Shown piece after piece: positions 46,882 through 59,387 of a stretch of DNA of 64,000 nt. The notes under the pieces were generated by a model, which ran no database searches, was not told the DNA's origin, and worked only from the letters and a program-made list of their open reading frames with translations. A program made the position numbers and the translations under genes. The number at the start of each line of letters is the position of its first letter. Within the stretch, counting starts at the first letter, position 1. Origin of the DNA: Meiothermus sp. (GTDB lineage: Bacteria > Deinococcota > Deinococci > Deinococcales > Thermaceae); assembly GCF_026004075.1 (NCBI RefSeq), contig NZ_BPIK01000001.1:1838041-1902040 (forward strand), written 5' to 3'.

Positions 46882-49734
46882 TCAGAGCTGGAGCGTACGA
46901 TATGAGTCACCCATGGCGACAAAAGCCGCCCAAAAATAGGGGTTGGGAAAGACCGCGCGCACAGCAAGCTGTGCCTCACGCAATGCTGTGGCTATGGGCT
47001 GGCCCAACCGTAGATGGGTGTAAAAGGTGGTCATAAACTGAGCCGTAACATCGTCTCGAACCGGCCACAGGCTAGCAATCAGACAGGGCGCGCCAGCATA
47101 CAGGAAGCCCCGCGTCAGACCCATCAGTTCGTCGCCGCCGGCCTGTTTGGTCAGCCCTGTTTCACAAGCCGAGAGCACCACCAATTCGGCCTGGAGGCGA
47201 AGGTTGTAAAGGTCGCGGGCCGTCAGCCATCCATCGGCCATACGCAGGCCGGAAAACATAGGGTTATCGGGACGGAACGCCCCATGGGTTGCAATGTGCA
47301 AAACCCCTGCCTGGGGCGCAGCAGCAAAGAAATTCTGCAAGGTAGCCTCGTCACCCACAAACTTTTGGGTGTTTTGTACAATTCGGCAAATCTGCTCCAC
47401 CTCTTCAACAGCATAGGGAATGTTGGCAAGCGGTACACCAAAAGCAGTTAGGGGGCCTGTCTCGAGATAGCTGCGCTTACGACACAAAGTGTACACCGCC
47501 GCACTGGGGGCTAGAGAGACCTCCGCGCGATCAAGCAGGTACTGCTCACCATCGAACAAGGCGGCAAAGGGCACGGCGTGCAGCGCCCCATGCGGCACGA
47601 TAATCAGGGGTTGGCCGGTGAGCTGGAGCGGAAGGGGTTCGATCAGCAGGTGGTACAGAGCCTGGAGGTGTTCGTCCACCGCGCGCCGAAGGGCTTCTTC
47701 GCCATAAATTTTGAGCATGATGCCGCCCTGCGCCACGCGGGTCAGAAAGAACTCGAGCTGCTCGAGGTGCTGCCGAGCCCGCTCAAGCGAGCCCAGGTTG
47801 CGCACCACCTCAATGCGCTTTTCTTCAATCAAAAAAGCTACCAGTCCGCGGTGCGTATTGTAGTACTCCAGCAGAACAGCGCCAGACTCGAGGGCTTGCC
47901 GCACATCCCACAAGCCAATACCCGGCACCTGCTCAAAGGCCGCGGCTTCTGGCTGAAGGCGCTCGATCTCGCGAACAAGCTGCGTAATCCGATGCTCGAG
48001 GCTCACCATTTTCTCCCGCTGGCTGCTGCGGATCCCCGAGGTTTCCGTTTCCAGGATCAGGAGATACTGGTTCAATTCCTGGCGCGTCTGGGCTAGCTCC
48101 TGTTGCAGTCGTTCTATTTCAGGATCAAAAAGGGTTTGGGGCTGTTCACCCCTTTGGGCCAGCATGTCTACCAAAGCCCGTGACTTGGCCCGCTCGGCGT
48201 ATTCAAAGGCTTCGGGCAGGCGCTGTTTATCCAGCAGCAGCTCGACCAAGCAGTCGTACACTTCCAGCTTATCGCCCAGGTATGCCGACTTAAACTCGTC
48301 CACCCTCAGGCTTACCCGCATGCTCTCGAGGCGCTCGATGGCTTGTTTAAAATGCAACTCGGCAGCTTGCGTGCGATTCTCCAGCAGGGCCATCTGGCCC
48401 CGCAGGCGTTCGATGCGAATGGTGAGATCGGGAATATTCAGCCCCACCATCAGCGAGACCGCTTCCTCCAGATAGCGTCTGGCCTCGGTATGGTTGCTCA
48501 GGCTCAGCAAGGCCTCGGCCATAACGCTCAGACCCAGGGCCTTGGCCGAGGGGATCTCGGTCAAGGCCTCGAGGGCCCGCCCCACCACCAGCACCGCCTG
48601 CTCCAAGGCCTCGACCTGACCCTTACGGCCCGACTCCAAAAACAAAGACGCCACCGCTACATCCACTAGGGCAACCTGGATGACATTGTCCAGCACCAGC
48701 CAGCCCGCCCGCGCACGCTCTAGGGTCTGCCGGGCTTCCTCGAGCTGGCCTTGCTTGGCCTGTGCACCACCCAAGGTGGTCAGGGCTTCGGCCAGTTCCT
48801 TCTGCATCCCCCGTGCAGAAAAGAGCTCCACCAACACCCGAGAAAGTTGAATGGCCTCGGACAGCAGGTTGAGGTCGAGGCAAATACGGGCTTCCTCGAG
48901 CTGGGCAAAAGCAGCGTTGGGGTAGTCTTCCAGGTTCCCATACATGAGTCGAACCCGGCTCAGAAGATCGAGGGCCTGGTTCAGGCGGCCCTGCTTGCGG
49001 TGCAGCAGGGCCAGCTTGACGCTGTTTCCGATAAAGTCTTCGGTCTGGTTGTGGGTACGAAAGATCTCCAGCGCCCGCTGGTAGTGCTCTACGGCCTCGG
49101 AGTAGCGATCCTGGGCCTCGTAAATGAGGGCCAGGTTGCTGTGGGCCTTGCCCTGCCCAATTAAATCACCCAGCCGCTCGAGCTGTTCCAGCGCATACCG
49201 CACAGCCCCTTCGGCCTCGAGCATGCGACCCGAGCGGTAATGGATAATGCCGATATTTATGCTGACCAGCGCTGCATCGTGCAGCAATTTCAGATCGATA
49301 AAAGCTTCGCGAATCTGTTCTGCCAGGGCTAGAGCACCAGCCATGTTGCCCGTAATGGCCAGGGCCTGAATTTCTCGCATGCCCGCGCGGGCCGCATCTT
49401 CTTTGTGGCCCAGACTTTGCAGACCCTGGCGGGCCTCCGCGTAGTACGGCAATGCTTCGGTAAACCGTCCCCGCACAGTAAGACCAACTGCATAGGCCCA
49501 AAAAGCCAACCAACGCGCTCGAGCATCCCGCACATAAGCTGCTATCTCCAATGCCCGCTCGCCCGCTTGCAGGGCCCTGGCTGTATCCACATCTTTATGG
49601 CGATCAACCTCGGCTTTGAGGGCTTCAATCAGGTGAGCGTACTCGGCCTCGGATGTAAGCTGTTGCAACCAGGCCTGTCTCCTAGCCGGATCGGGCTCGT
49701 TCATAATGTATTGGGCCAGGTCGTAAGGGGTCAT
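46882..49734 (-). CDS. TPR-CHAT caspase-like protease
   Basis: The 950-residue protein has tetratricopeptide repeats over about residues 1-420 and a coiled coil near 520-600. The C-terminal CHAT domain (about 660-950) is a caspase/separase-like cysteine protease. The catalytic dyad is intact: His817 in HIATHGAF and Cys857 in LSACETG. GDELMGLTRGF and the C-terminal WAAFVAMGD are typical. It has no signal peptide, so acts in the cytoplasm. A tandem 14-bp repeat lies just upstream, and the GGDEF gene and a small beta-rich protein gene precede it on the same strand. The substrate is unknown. Confidence 0.93.
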   Translation of the reverse strand: MTPYDLAQYIMNEPDPARRQAWLQQLTSEAEYAHLIEALKAEVDRHKDVDTARALQAGERALEIAAYVRDARARWLAFWAYAVGLTVRGRFTEALPYYAEARQGLQSLGHKEDAARAGMREIQALAITGNMAGALALAEQIREAFIDLKLLHDAALVSINIGIIHYRSGRMLEAEGAVRYALEQLERLGDLIGQGKAHSNLALIYEAQDRYSEAVEHYQRALEIFRTHNQTEDFIGNSVKLALLHRKQGRLNQALDLLSRVRLMYGNLEDYPNAAFAQLEEARICLDLNLLSEAIQLSRVLVELFSARGMQKELAEALTTLGGAQAKQGQLEEARQTLERARAGWLVLDNVIQVALVDVAVASLFLESGRKGQVEALEQAVLVVGRALEALTEIPSAKALGLSVMAEALLSLSNHTEARRYLEEAVSLMVGLNIPDLTIRIERLRGQMALLENRTQAAELHFKQAIERLESMRVSLRVDEFKSAYLGDKLEVYDCLVELLLDKQRLPEAFEYAERAKSRALVDMLAQRGEQPQTLFDPEIERLQQELAQTRQELNQYLLILETETSGIRSSQREKMVSLEHRITQLVREIERLQPEAAAFEQVPGIGLWDVRQALESGAVLLEYYNTHRGLVAFLIEEKRIEVVRNLGSLERARQHLEQLEFFLTRVAQGGIMLKIYGEEALRRAVDEHLQALYHLLIEPLPLQLTGQPLIIVPHGALHAVPFAALFDGEQYLLDRAEVSLAPSAAVYTLCRKRSYLETGPLTAFGVPLANIPYAVEEVEQICRIVQNTQKFVGDEATLQNFFAAAPQAGVLHIATHGAFRPDNPMFSGLRMADGWLTARDLYNLRLQAELVVLSACETGLTKQAGGDELMGLTRGFLYAGAPCLIASLWPVRDDVTAQFMTTFYTHLRLGQPIATALREAQLAVRAVFPNPYFWAAFVAMGDSYRTLQL

Positions 49735-49760
49735 GAATATCGCGAATTCCAGAGCAAATT

Positions 49761-49788
49761 ACAAATAAATCGATACAAATAAATCGAT
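49761..49788. repeat. Tandem 14-bp repeat before the CHAT gene
   Basis: ACAAATAAATCGAT occurs twice with no gap (49761-49774, 49775-49788), starting 27 bases upstream of the CHAT ATG. It is much more AT-rich than its surroundings and could bind a regulator or act as an upstream promoter element. Confidence 0.6.
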
Positions 49789-49886
49789 CCGTGCTCACTT
49801 AAAGTTCCCGTAGCAGCTCGTACCAGGTGTGAGTCCTGCGGATTGTAAAAGCTATAGCGGCCTTCGCTTCTTTACTGAAGCGTGTT

Positions 49887-51881
49887 CTAAGCTGCCGATT
49901 GATCACTTAGCCATACCCTCAGAGAGTATAAGGCCTCTACTACTCCGGGATCAAAGCGCTGGTGGGCTTGCGCAACAATCTCCTCTAAGGCTTCCTCCGG
50001 GCTTCGGGCAGCCCGTCCTTCTGCCGGCTGGGTGGCTGTGATGTAGTGTAAAGCCACCTGCAGTACCCGTGCCGCTCGCGGAATCGACTCGCTCAGCAAT
50101 TCCCGGGCATCCCAGGGGCTCTGAAGATACATCAACACCCTTGCAGCCTCGCGCAGCAGGGCTTCAGGGAGCTGTGCTTCCGTCGTCGGCATGGCCCGCC
50201 CCAGGGCCAGCTCGAGCAGATAGCAACTGGCCTGTAAAACCTGCTGCTCCTCCCAGTCCAGTTTTAGCACCTGCGCCAGGCGGTCAGCCAGGCGAAACAA
50301 TGGGGTATCCAGCTGTAGGCCCCACTGGGCTGGCTCGAGTCCGGGTGCAAATAACGGAGTGCGACCCTTGCGCAAGGCTTTGTCTTTGTACATCTGATCG
50401 TCGGCCCGTCGCCAAAGGTTTTGGGCGTCGGTGACCTCGGTTGGGAAAACCGCATAGCCAAGACTCACTTTTAGATATGTACTGTCCGAAACTCGAATCT
50501 CCTCTAGCAAAGCTCGGTAGCGCTCGGCAATGCGCTGGGGATCCAGGTTGCTCGAGCCCTCGATTAGCAGAGCAAACTCGTCGCCCCCCAGGCGGTAGGC
50601 CCGGTCGCCGGCCCTGGCCCTGGCGCGCAACACTCCGCCCAGCCGCACCAGCAGATGATCGGCGTGAATATGGCCATAGGTGTCGTTGATGGACTTGAAC
50701 CCATCCAGGTCGAGCAACATCAGCACCACCATCCGGCCATTGGTTCGGGCGGTCAGCTTTTCCAGGTCGCGCTCAAAAGCCCGGCGGTTGCCCAGGCCCG
50801 TCAAGGGGTCGGTGTAGGCAGCCCAGGCCAGCTCGCGCCGCAAGGCCCACTCAGCCCGCACGACCCCAATGGCCGCTGCCATATCACCCAGCAGTTCTTG
50901 TGTCTGGGCGTCGGGCAACCAGTGTCGTTGGGTGCTGAACAGCAGCAGTGCGCTGGTTTCGCTGCTCTGGCGCAGAATGGGCAGGATAAACAGGCTACGC
51001 AGCCCAGCTTCGAACAGTTCGGGGCGCCGGTTGGGGTAGAGGTCGTAGCGCGGTATGCCCACCTGCTGGCCGCTGCGCAGACGCTCGCCCAGCTGGCGGG
51101 TAATGGCCGCCTCCACCACCAGCCCCGAGCCCCAGCCGGCCTGGGCGATGGTGCGGATAGCGTGTCCTTCAAACACAATTAGGCGTGCGCCTTCGGCCCC
51201 GGAAAGCCGGGTGGCTTCCTCGATGGCATCCTGCAAGACTAGCTCGAGCGGTTGTTCGCGTGAGGTTTGTAGAAGAGCATTGATGGCCGATAGCCAGAGC
51301 GCTTTCCGCTCGGCTTGCTCACGCAGATACACCTCGCGCAGAATTGGCGCAATTCCCGAAACAAACTGCCCCACCCAGCCAGCCTCGTCCGGGCCAAGGT
51401 GCTGGGCCTGTGCATGGAGTTGCAACACCGCCCACACCTGCCGATCCGCCACCAGGGGCAGGGTTAGGTTGGCTGGCGGCTCCTCTACCGAGAGCCCGGC
51501 AGGCTGCAGCCCCAGAACCCGCTCCAGGATGTGCTGCTGATTGTCAAGGTGGGCTACCCCACCCTGCCAGTCTTCCGCTGAGCCCAAGTAGGCCGACTTG
51601 AGGGAAGACTCCAGCACCTCCTCGAGGCTTCCTTTTGGCACACCTCGAGCAGCCTGCAAATAAAATTGATGGGGGCCCTGGCGAACCCAAAAAAAGGCTT
51701 GCGCTATCCCCGGTAGTTCGTGCAGCAGCTCGTCCAGGGTCAGCTCAAAGGATGCTGTTGTACTGCCCTTCAACAGACGGTCAATCAGGGCGGCAGGAAC
51801 CGCAGGGCGTGCTTTATTGGCTCTGGCACCCGAGGGTACTCGAGGCAAGCGCAAACGGCGCGGCAAACGTTCTTCAGACAT
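49887..51881 (-). CDS. GAF-GGDEF diguanylate cyclase with degenerate HD-GYP-like tail
   Basis: The 664-residue cytoplasmic protein has GAF-like sensor domains over about residues 25-360, then a GGDEF domain whose GGDEF signature is intact at 432-436. An inhibitory RxxD (RAGD) lies five residues before it, so it should make c-di-GMP with product inhibition. The last 150 residues resemble an HD-GYP domain (SPEEALEEI and FDPGVVEALYSL) but lack the metal-binding His-Asp and GYP residues. I chose the ATG at 51881. It lies 98 bases after the small beta-rich gene and 152 before the CHAT gene. Confidence 0.9.
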   Translation of the reverse strand: MSEERLPRRLRLPRVPSGARANKARPAVPAALIDRLLKGSTTASFELTLDELLHELPGIAQAFFWVRQGPHQFYLQAARGVPKGSLEEVLESSLKSAYLGSAEDWQGGVAHLDNQQHILERVLGLQPAGLSVEEPPANLTLPLVADRQVWAVLQLHAQAQHLGPDEAGWVGQFVSGIAPILREVYLREQAERKALWLSAINALLQTSREQPLELVLQDAIEEATRLSGAEGARLIVFEGHAIRTIAQAGWGSGLVVEAAITRQLGERLRSGQQVGIPRYDLYPNRRPELFEAGLRSLFILPILRQSSETSALLLFSTQRHWLPDAQTQELLGDMAAAIGVVRAEWALRRELAWAAYTDPLTGLGNRRAFERDLEKLTARTNGRMVVLMLLDLDGFKSINDTYGHIHADHLLVRLGGVLRARARAGDRAYRLGGDEFALLIEGSSNLDPQRIAERYRALLEEIRVSDSTYLKVSLGYAVFPTEVTDAQNLWRRADDQMYKDKALRKGRTPLFAPGLEPAQWGLQLDTPLFRLADRLAQVLKLDWEEQQVLQASCYLLELALGRAMPTTEAQLPEALLREAARVLMYLQSPWDARELLSESIPRAARVLQVALHYITATQPAEGRAARSPEEALEEIVAQAHQRFDPGVVEALYSLRVWLSDQSAA

Positions 51882-51979
51882 ACTAGTACCTTTGTCAGAC
51901 AATTCGCTTGAAGGTGTTTATCAAGTATCAGAGCGCGGGATGGTATACCAAATTCCGGTTGCAGAGGCTTTGGAGAAAA

Positions 51980-52348
51980 TCAAGGTATATCCAGCGAACG
52001 CACTACAAACGAATGTCCGCCCAGGTGCATCTCGAGGCGGCAGACCCCACCAGCAGGAACCCGAAAATGCCAGGCTCTCATGGCCCCCAGCTCGGCATCC
52101 TGCAGCACCTCCTGGTTTTCGGCCACCAGCCGAACCCTGCCTTCCAGGGGGTTGGGTGTCAGCAGTTTGCCCATCAGAAGCGGCCCCGACCCATCTATCT
52201 TTAGGCTCAAGTCGAGGTAGAGATTGTCCAGCTTGTACAGGCGGTTCCAGGATTCGCAGGTGCTGTGGCTGCCAACTATAGCGGGTGCGCTGCGCGAGTA
52301 CATAATCAAAATAGCTTCACCATACTGGGGTATTGTATCTGGTGTCAT
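51980..52348 (-). CDS. Small beta-rich protein, CHAT-associated, paralogue A
   Basis: This 122-residue protein is predicted mostly beta-strand. Its core WNRLYKLDNLYLDLSLK, followed by a GxLL strand and the C-terminal VVRSLDIP, is shared with the protein at 59016-59387. The pattern of a hydrophobic strand, GKLL, polar turn and VPAGG turn resembles carboxypeptidase-regulatory or transthyretin-like folds. AGGAG selects the ATG at 52348. It is first of three minus-strand genes ending in the TPR-CHAT protease, so it may be its ligand, substrate or regulator. This is inference. Confidence 0.75.
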   Translation of the reverse strand: MTPDTIPQYGEAILIMYSRSAPAIVGSHSTCESWNRLYKLDNLYLDLSLKIDGSGPLLMGKLLTPNPLEGRVRLVAENQEVLQDAELGAMRAWHFRVPAGGVCRLEMHLGGHSFVVRSLDIP

Positions 52349-52423
52349 ACTGGTTTCTCCTAAGCATCTACGCCATCCACCAATGGCTGTTCTCACAATA
52401 AAAACCATTCTCAGGTTGGAGGG

Positions 52424-52452
52424 TACATATAACCGTTACGCGTAAATGTCAA
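52424..52452 (-). promoter_or_regulatory. Promoter of the CHAT-associated gene set
   Basis: On the minus strand TTGACA, an exact 17-base spacer and TATGTA form a strong sigma-70 promoter. The spacer contains CGTAACGG (plus-strand 52433-52440), which also occurs before the paralogue at 59016. Confidence 0.65.
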
Positions 52453-58894: not shown

Positions 58895-58930
58895 CGTAAC
58901 GAGACGTAACGGTCAAATTTGAACTTGACA
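58895..58930 (+). promoter_or_regulatory. Promoter region of the lone small beta-rich gene
   Basis: CGTAACG occurs at 58895-58901 and 58905-58911, one helical turn apart. TTGACA follows at 58925-58930, with TATCTT 15 bases further on. The CGTAACGG form also lies in the promoter of the paralogue at 52348. Confidence 0.45.
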
Positions 58931-59015: not shown

Positions 59016-59387
59016 ATGCTCTCAAGCCCGTCTTCGTCACACAGTGAAGGAATCCTGATTCTGGATTCGCGCAATATGCCCGGTACCACACTGCGGTATC
59101 AGGGCTCTTTTAGTGTGTGGAACAGGCTTTATAAAGTGGGGCATTTTTATCTCGACTTGTCCCTCAAGGGCGATGAAAGCGGTGCCTTCTTGGTTGGGCA
59201 GGTGATTTGCGAGACCCAAAAGCCATCATCCTGGCAGATAACCCTCCATGGCCCCAGCCAGCACTACAGCAGCCCTGTCAGTGAATATGGAAGCTTCCGG
59301 ATAAAGGTTGCAGAAAAGGGCGAGTACGACCTCGAGCTTGCCCTGGGCCATGAAACCTTCTGGGTACGGGGCTTGGATATATCGTAG
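59016..59387 (+). CDS. Small beta-rich protein, paralogue B of the CHAT-associated protein
   Basis: This 123-residue protein shares VWNRLYKVGHFYLDLSLK and the C-terminal WVRGLDIS with the protein at 51980-52348, and has the same length and predicted beta-rich fold. It has no Cys and no signal peptide. TTAGGAG precedes the ATG. It is monocistronic, 7 kb from the CHAT locus, with its own promoter. Function is unknown; it may act on the same TPR-CHAT protein in trans. Confidence 0.75.
   Translation: MLSSPSSSHSEGILILDSRNMPGTTLRYQGSFSVWNRLYKVGHFYLDLSLKGDESGAFLVGQVICETQKPSSWQITLHGPSQHYSSPVSEYGSFRIKVAEKGEYDLELALGHETFWVRGLDIS

Follow-up and report, generated by a model that had tools for sequence, protein, structure and literature searches.

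The SMALL-GGDEF-CHAT locus of Meiothermus sp. is probably a reduced, lineage-specific version of a proteolytic signalling module that occurs across phyla, in which a small protein (SMALL) would dock on a TPR-CHAT protease. This reading builds on features that we observed directly, namely homology, conservation of gene order, intact catalytic residues, a common promoter box and the pattern of gene loss. By analogy with a known CHAT protease, we infer that the target of CHAT is either SMALL itself or a protein that SMALL presents.

Organization of the Meiothermus locus

The window, a stretch of 64,000 nucleotides of contig NZ_BPIK01000001.1 (positions 1,838,041 to 1,902,040), carries the three genes SMALL, GAF-GGDEF and TPR-CHAT, all on the minus strand, as well as a second SMALL copy and two promoter boxes:

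46882-49734, minus strand: TPR-CHAT cysteine protease, 950 aa, Pfam CHAT (PF12770) at 4e-69 plus TPR repeats
49887-51881/51902, minus strand: GAF-GAF-GGDEF protein, Pfam GGDEF at 3e-36, two GAF stretches and a C-terminal partial HD_5 match
51980-52348, minus strand: SMALLb, 122 aa, ATG at 52348, predicted beta-sandwich protein
52427-52440, minus strand: promoter box CGTAACGGTTATAT, upstream of SMALLb-GGDEF-CHAT
58905-58918, plus strand: promoter box CGTAACGGTCAAAT in front of SMALLa, the second of the two in the genome
59016-59387, plus strand: SMALLa, relocated paralogue, which adjoins SMALLb in the five relatives G002, G003, G005, G013 and G017

The three same-strand genes described in the first-pass annotation were all present, and the His817/Cys857 dyad of the protease was invariant across 10 homologues. 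The protein combines a PF12770 profile match above the cut-off with this His/Cys dyad, as expected of a CHAT peptidase. For SMALLb, a longer frame from 52408 exists, and the family alignment favours the 122-aa start. The tail of the GAF-GGDEF protein is degenerate and HD-like; the GGDEF site and the RxxD inhibitory site were intact in nine operon orthologues, which are predicted on this basis to be diguanylate cyclases. The CHAT gene is present in a single copy in the window genome, in which GGDEF gave 14 matches. Direct repeats and CRISPR-like repeats were absent from 40-62 kb of the window, in agreement with the first-pass annotation, and the neighbouring frames that we read included neither a gRAMP (Cas7-11) lookalike nor an ECF sigma gene. 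A search of the window genome for an S8 protease matching the SMALL-linked subtilase of the relatives found none.

Identity of the SMALL protein

The Pfam search of the window SMALL returned no matches. Its AlphaFold prediction was compact and mostly of good quality, the model of SMALLb being a nine-strand beta-sandwich (pLDDT 88). Foldseek searches with SMALL against solved structures recovered generic Ig-like matches and nothing more specific, the family profile matched NOMO2 at 5e-7 together with other prealbumin-like domains, and CarboxypepD_reg weakly matched 7 of the 41 family members (best E-value 4e-4). We also considered a gasdermin-type effector and ruled it out, SMALL being far too short and without a library match.

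With hhalign, the SMALL family of the genus aligned with the C-terminal half of an acidobacterial protein (98.5%). The N-terminus of this acidobacterial protein matched RsiW at 8e-7, with weaker matches to DdvA and ChrR, and the top fold match of its model was ChrR (2.5e-3). Among the distant SMALL homologues, 27 of 41 carried the HX3-4CX2C anti-sigma motif. The acidobacterial family is thus similar at its N-terminus to the zinc anti-sigma factors RsiW and ChrR, in sequence and also in structure in the case of ChrR, whereas this domain is absent from the window SMALL sequence. As judged from these profile and model comparisons, SMALL shares homology with the C-terminal half of putative zinc anti-sigma proteins and is probably a beta-sandwich of the carboxypeptidase-regulatory/Ig-like type that has diverged, and not the wholly new family for which it had been taken.

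The first 45 residues of a solved CHAT domain-containing protein (PDB 8rot_B) weakly matched the zinc anti-sigma-like N-terminus (E-value 0.04). This protein is a possible anti-sigma/CHAT fusion, which we mention only as a lead; our literature search returned no paper on the point for CATRA, PDB 8ROT/8RW5/8RLZ or DdvA.

SMALL copies in the genus and their promoter box

Searches with a single sequence restricted SMALL to the genus, two weak matches aside, and the profile search extended it to two further genera of the same order. The 46 SMALL copies in the sampled loci fell into five contexts. In context A, the order SMALL(-SMALL)-GGDEF-CHAT was kept in nine genomes of the genus. In context B, SMALL is divergent from a sigma-region-4-like gene on one side and is followed by a MASE9-HD-GYP gene on the other; this third SMALL copy, with an intact HD-GYP gene, was seen in about a dozen genus genomes (L005:9160-11350 and relatives). 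SMALL lies immediately 3' of the gene for an S8 subtilase that carries a lipoprotein-like signal in context C and 5' of an unrelated dehydrogenase gene in context D, and context E comprises orphan copies such as the one at 59016. Contexts C and A are united as S8-SMALL-SMALL-GGDEF-CHAT in G002 and G003, and in a third relative when two results are combined. Among the SMALL copies, SMALLa is closest to the upstream one of the two-SMALL operons. Because some SMALL copies of the genus lie apart from CHAT, the family does not serve CHAT exclusively as a partner. Two matches on different contigs of one genome (G000:C1:2465169 and G000:C2:10105) had identical identity and E-value, perhaps through assembly overlap.

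The promoter box CGTAACGGTYAWWT occurred 16 times in 18 genus genomes, and, judged by position, each of the 16 matches lies 5' of one of the two SMALL genes (a or b), of the S8 gene or of GGDEF. A control with the reversed pattern gave none. The window genome has two matches, 5' of SMALLb and 5' of SMALLa. Upstream of SMALLb, the conserved elements were the CGTAACGG box and, farther downstream, a stretch resembling TATTGTG. The box was found directly 5' of GGDEF in G012, which has no SMALLb there, and a close variant occupies the same place in G010; G016 retains a SMALLb remnant.

The first-pass annotation had proposed that the three genes run from one strong promoter. Co-transcription of SMALL, GGDEF and CHAT is favoured by the conserved gene order and by the shortness of the gaps, as far as can be read from the genomes. 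The single strong promoter found partial support: the window's TTGACA 5' of SMALL showed no conservation, the consensus promoter scan gave no excess over shuffles, and it placed one weak promoter-like site before CHAT (49954-49925). The gap between GGDEF and CHAT is 3-75 bp in eight relatives vs about 150 bp in the window, and the scan listed no minus-strand terminators in the two intergenic gaps.

The copies of SMALL with other neighbours could suggest that the genes of the locus adjoin by chance, with no functional link. This explanation is barely credible given that the association recurs in two phyla and that the genes share a private promoter box.

Loss pattern and the role of the GGDEF protein

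CHAT was present in 13 of 18 genus genomes and the GGDEF protein in 17. With the copies assigned to contexts by us, 11 of the 13 genomes that have CHAT showed an intact CHAT-linked SMALL; the two exceptions, G012 and G015, are both about 85% complete. None of the five CHAT-less genomes showed one. G008 has lost CHAT and keeps only a relic of the SMALL next to it, with GGDEF intact. SMALL and CHAT look like a working pair because the CHAT-less genomes keep GGDEF without an intact CHAT-linked SMALL.

This pattern bears on the suggestion that the GGDEF protein gives the signal, binding of c-di-GMP or of a GAF ligand activating CHAT. GGDEF does adjoin CHAT in 9/9 complete operons, at a distance down to 3 bp, its active and inhibitory sites are intact, and context B also includes a c-di-GMP enzyme, the intact HD-GYP protein. 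However, the GGDEF gene is kept in all five CHAT-less genomes, one of which (G009) retains the promoter box upstream of it, it was not seen in the Trueperaceae or Acidobacteriota clusters described below, and its frame is split in G016. We thus consider this role, which the first-pass annotation had favoured, unlikely. In the latter genome (G016:C1:772125-774130), GGDEF was matched in two frames, possibly by a frameshift, and the downstream CHAT is in one piece.

Related clusters in other lineages

The search for the SMALL family next to CHAT genes, which had been put forward as a check of the partnership, recovered it in nine genus genomes, in Trueperaceae and in Acidobacteriota. The absence of co-occurrence that would have spoken against SMALL as a real partner in a CHAT protease system is thus excluded in two phyla. 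One Trueperaceae contig has the order S8-SMALL-CHAT; the Trueperaceae CHAT genes L122 and L124, from the close clade, have neither SMALL nor S8 nearby. When genome contigs were scanned by means of the CHAT alignment, SMALL-like and S8 genes adjoined the acidobacterial CHAT genes, with ECF sigma genes (Sigma70_r2 and r4) upstream. The typical order in Acidobacteriota was ECF sigma, SMALL, TPR-CHAT and subtilase. Neither the subtilase and ECF sigma factor of the relatives nor the shared promoter box had been picked up in the first-pass annotation.

In the set collected from CHAT, SMALL adjoined 13/19 close CHAT loci vs 2/52 distant ones (p 4e-8, a value that overstates independence, the loci being related by descent). 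The search based on SMALL alone covered 199 Acidobacteriota genomes, whose neighbourhoods were then read, and gave 23 loci; an ECF sigma gene lay within 1 kb in 18/23, CHAT within 1.5 kb in 17/23, S8 within 6 kb in 16/23 and all three in 12/23, these being descriptive counts, since CHAT-linked members had supplied the training set of the profile and the loci are of common descent. A plasmid search with an acidobacterial CHAT gave no match. Downstream of the acidobacterial subtilase, three loci (L131:13250-15397, L132:13766-16066 and L133:14087-16309) encode a large protein of 716-767 aa with similar N-termini, which is possibly a regulated product.

The acidobacterial SMALL-type protein is usually a fusion of the N-terminal zinc anti-sigma-like domain with the beta-sandwich. 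This arrangement better suits a target or docking role than that of a non-cleaved activator or sensor subunit, whose beta-sandwich would bind a ligand or peptide and switch CHAT on against targets elsewhere. Peptide or sugar binding is common among carboxypeptidase-regulatory and Ig-like folds, the SMALL fold is compact and mostly well predicted, and two SMALL paralogues could sense two inputs; we nevertheless hold the activator role to be rather doubtful.

CHAT proteases are also found in defence systems, and the CHAT protein of the window gave weak PADLOC matches, which could indicate an anti-phage or abortive-infection module. SMALL and GGDEF, however, had no PADLOC match, no effector was found beside the locus, CRISPR-like repeats are absent from the interval given above, and the relatives accompany ECF sigma factors and secreted subtilases, so that a defence function appears very improbable.

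Discussion

We return to the reading of the locus as a reduced signalling module. The full module would comprise an ECF sigma factor, an anti-sigma-like protein with a zinc domain and a C-terminal beta-sandwich, a TPR-CHAT protease and a secreted S8 subtilase. In the genus version, the locus has neither the sigma factor nor the zinc domain, and free beta-sandwiches (SMALLa and SMALLb) stand beside CHAT, with GGDEF between. SMALL may dock on CHAT as a substrate or as a substrate-presenting adaptor, in the manner of the C-terminal domain of Csx30 for Csx29, and its cleavage or binding would alter the activity of a regulator acting downstream. The GGDEF protein has its operon and promoter box in common with SMALL and CHAT; c-di-GMP might conceivably gate CHAT.

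In the Craspase of type III-E CRISPR (Csx29-Csx30-CASP-sigma), Csx29 recognises and cleaves Csx30 via the Csx30 C-terminal domain, which relieves the sigma factor (PMC10028731). Both systems have a TPR-CHAT protease and, in the relatives of the window locus, a partner protein tied to an ECF sigma factor. Unlike Craspase, the window is devoid of CRISPR repeats and its CHAT scored 47.7 bits with the NCBIfam Csx29 model, below the cut-off of 300; SMALL is likened to Csx30 by role and not by demonstrated homology. More tentatively, the module may be a CRISPR-free chromosomal counterpart of the sigma arm of Craspase, in which TPR-CHAT would cleave an anti-sigma protein through its beta-sandwich and so control transcription, the genus having detached the beta-sandwich as free SMALL proteins with a private promoter box. 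Type III-E CRISPR could possibly have recruited its protease from modules of this kind.

A review (PMC8999054) describes ECF54 sigma factors as devoid of an anti-sigma factor and, in its section 3.3, gives them a gene context of carboxypeptidase, subtilase and CHAT proteins. Our clusters resemble this context by the CHAT protease accompanied by a putative carboxypeptidase-regulatory-like domain, by the subtilase of the relatives and by the ECF sigma factor of the acidobacterial relatives, a likeness of gene context and not an assignment to an ECF group. They differ in that the window has no nearby ECF sigma factor and no matching S8 in its genome, with GGDEF instead, and in that the acidobacterial SMALL protein looks like an anti-sigma factor. 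The CHAT module is thus already known at the level of the ECF54 context; what we add is the likeness of the middle gene to anti-sigma factors, the reduced form that the genus has and the promoter box.

To our knowledge, CHAT proteases are widespread and their partners outside CRISPR systems mostly unknown. The present analysis names the SMALL beta-sandwich as a specific conserved partner of a non-CRISPR TPR-CHAT, as well as a circuit that is likely to be ancestral (ECF sigma, anti-sigma, CHAT and subtilase), and a private promoter box marks the regulon. The substrate of a non-CRISPR TPR-CHAT becomes a directly testable question in a cultivable genus.
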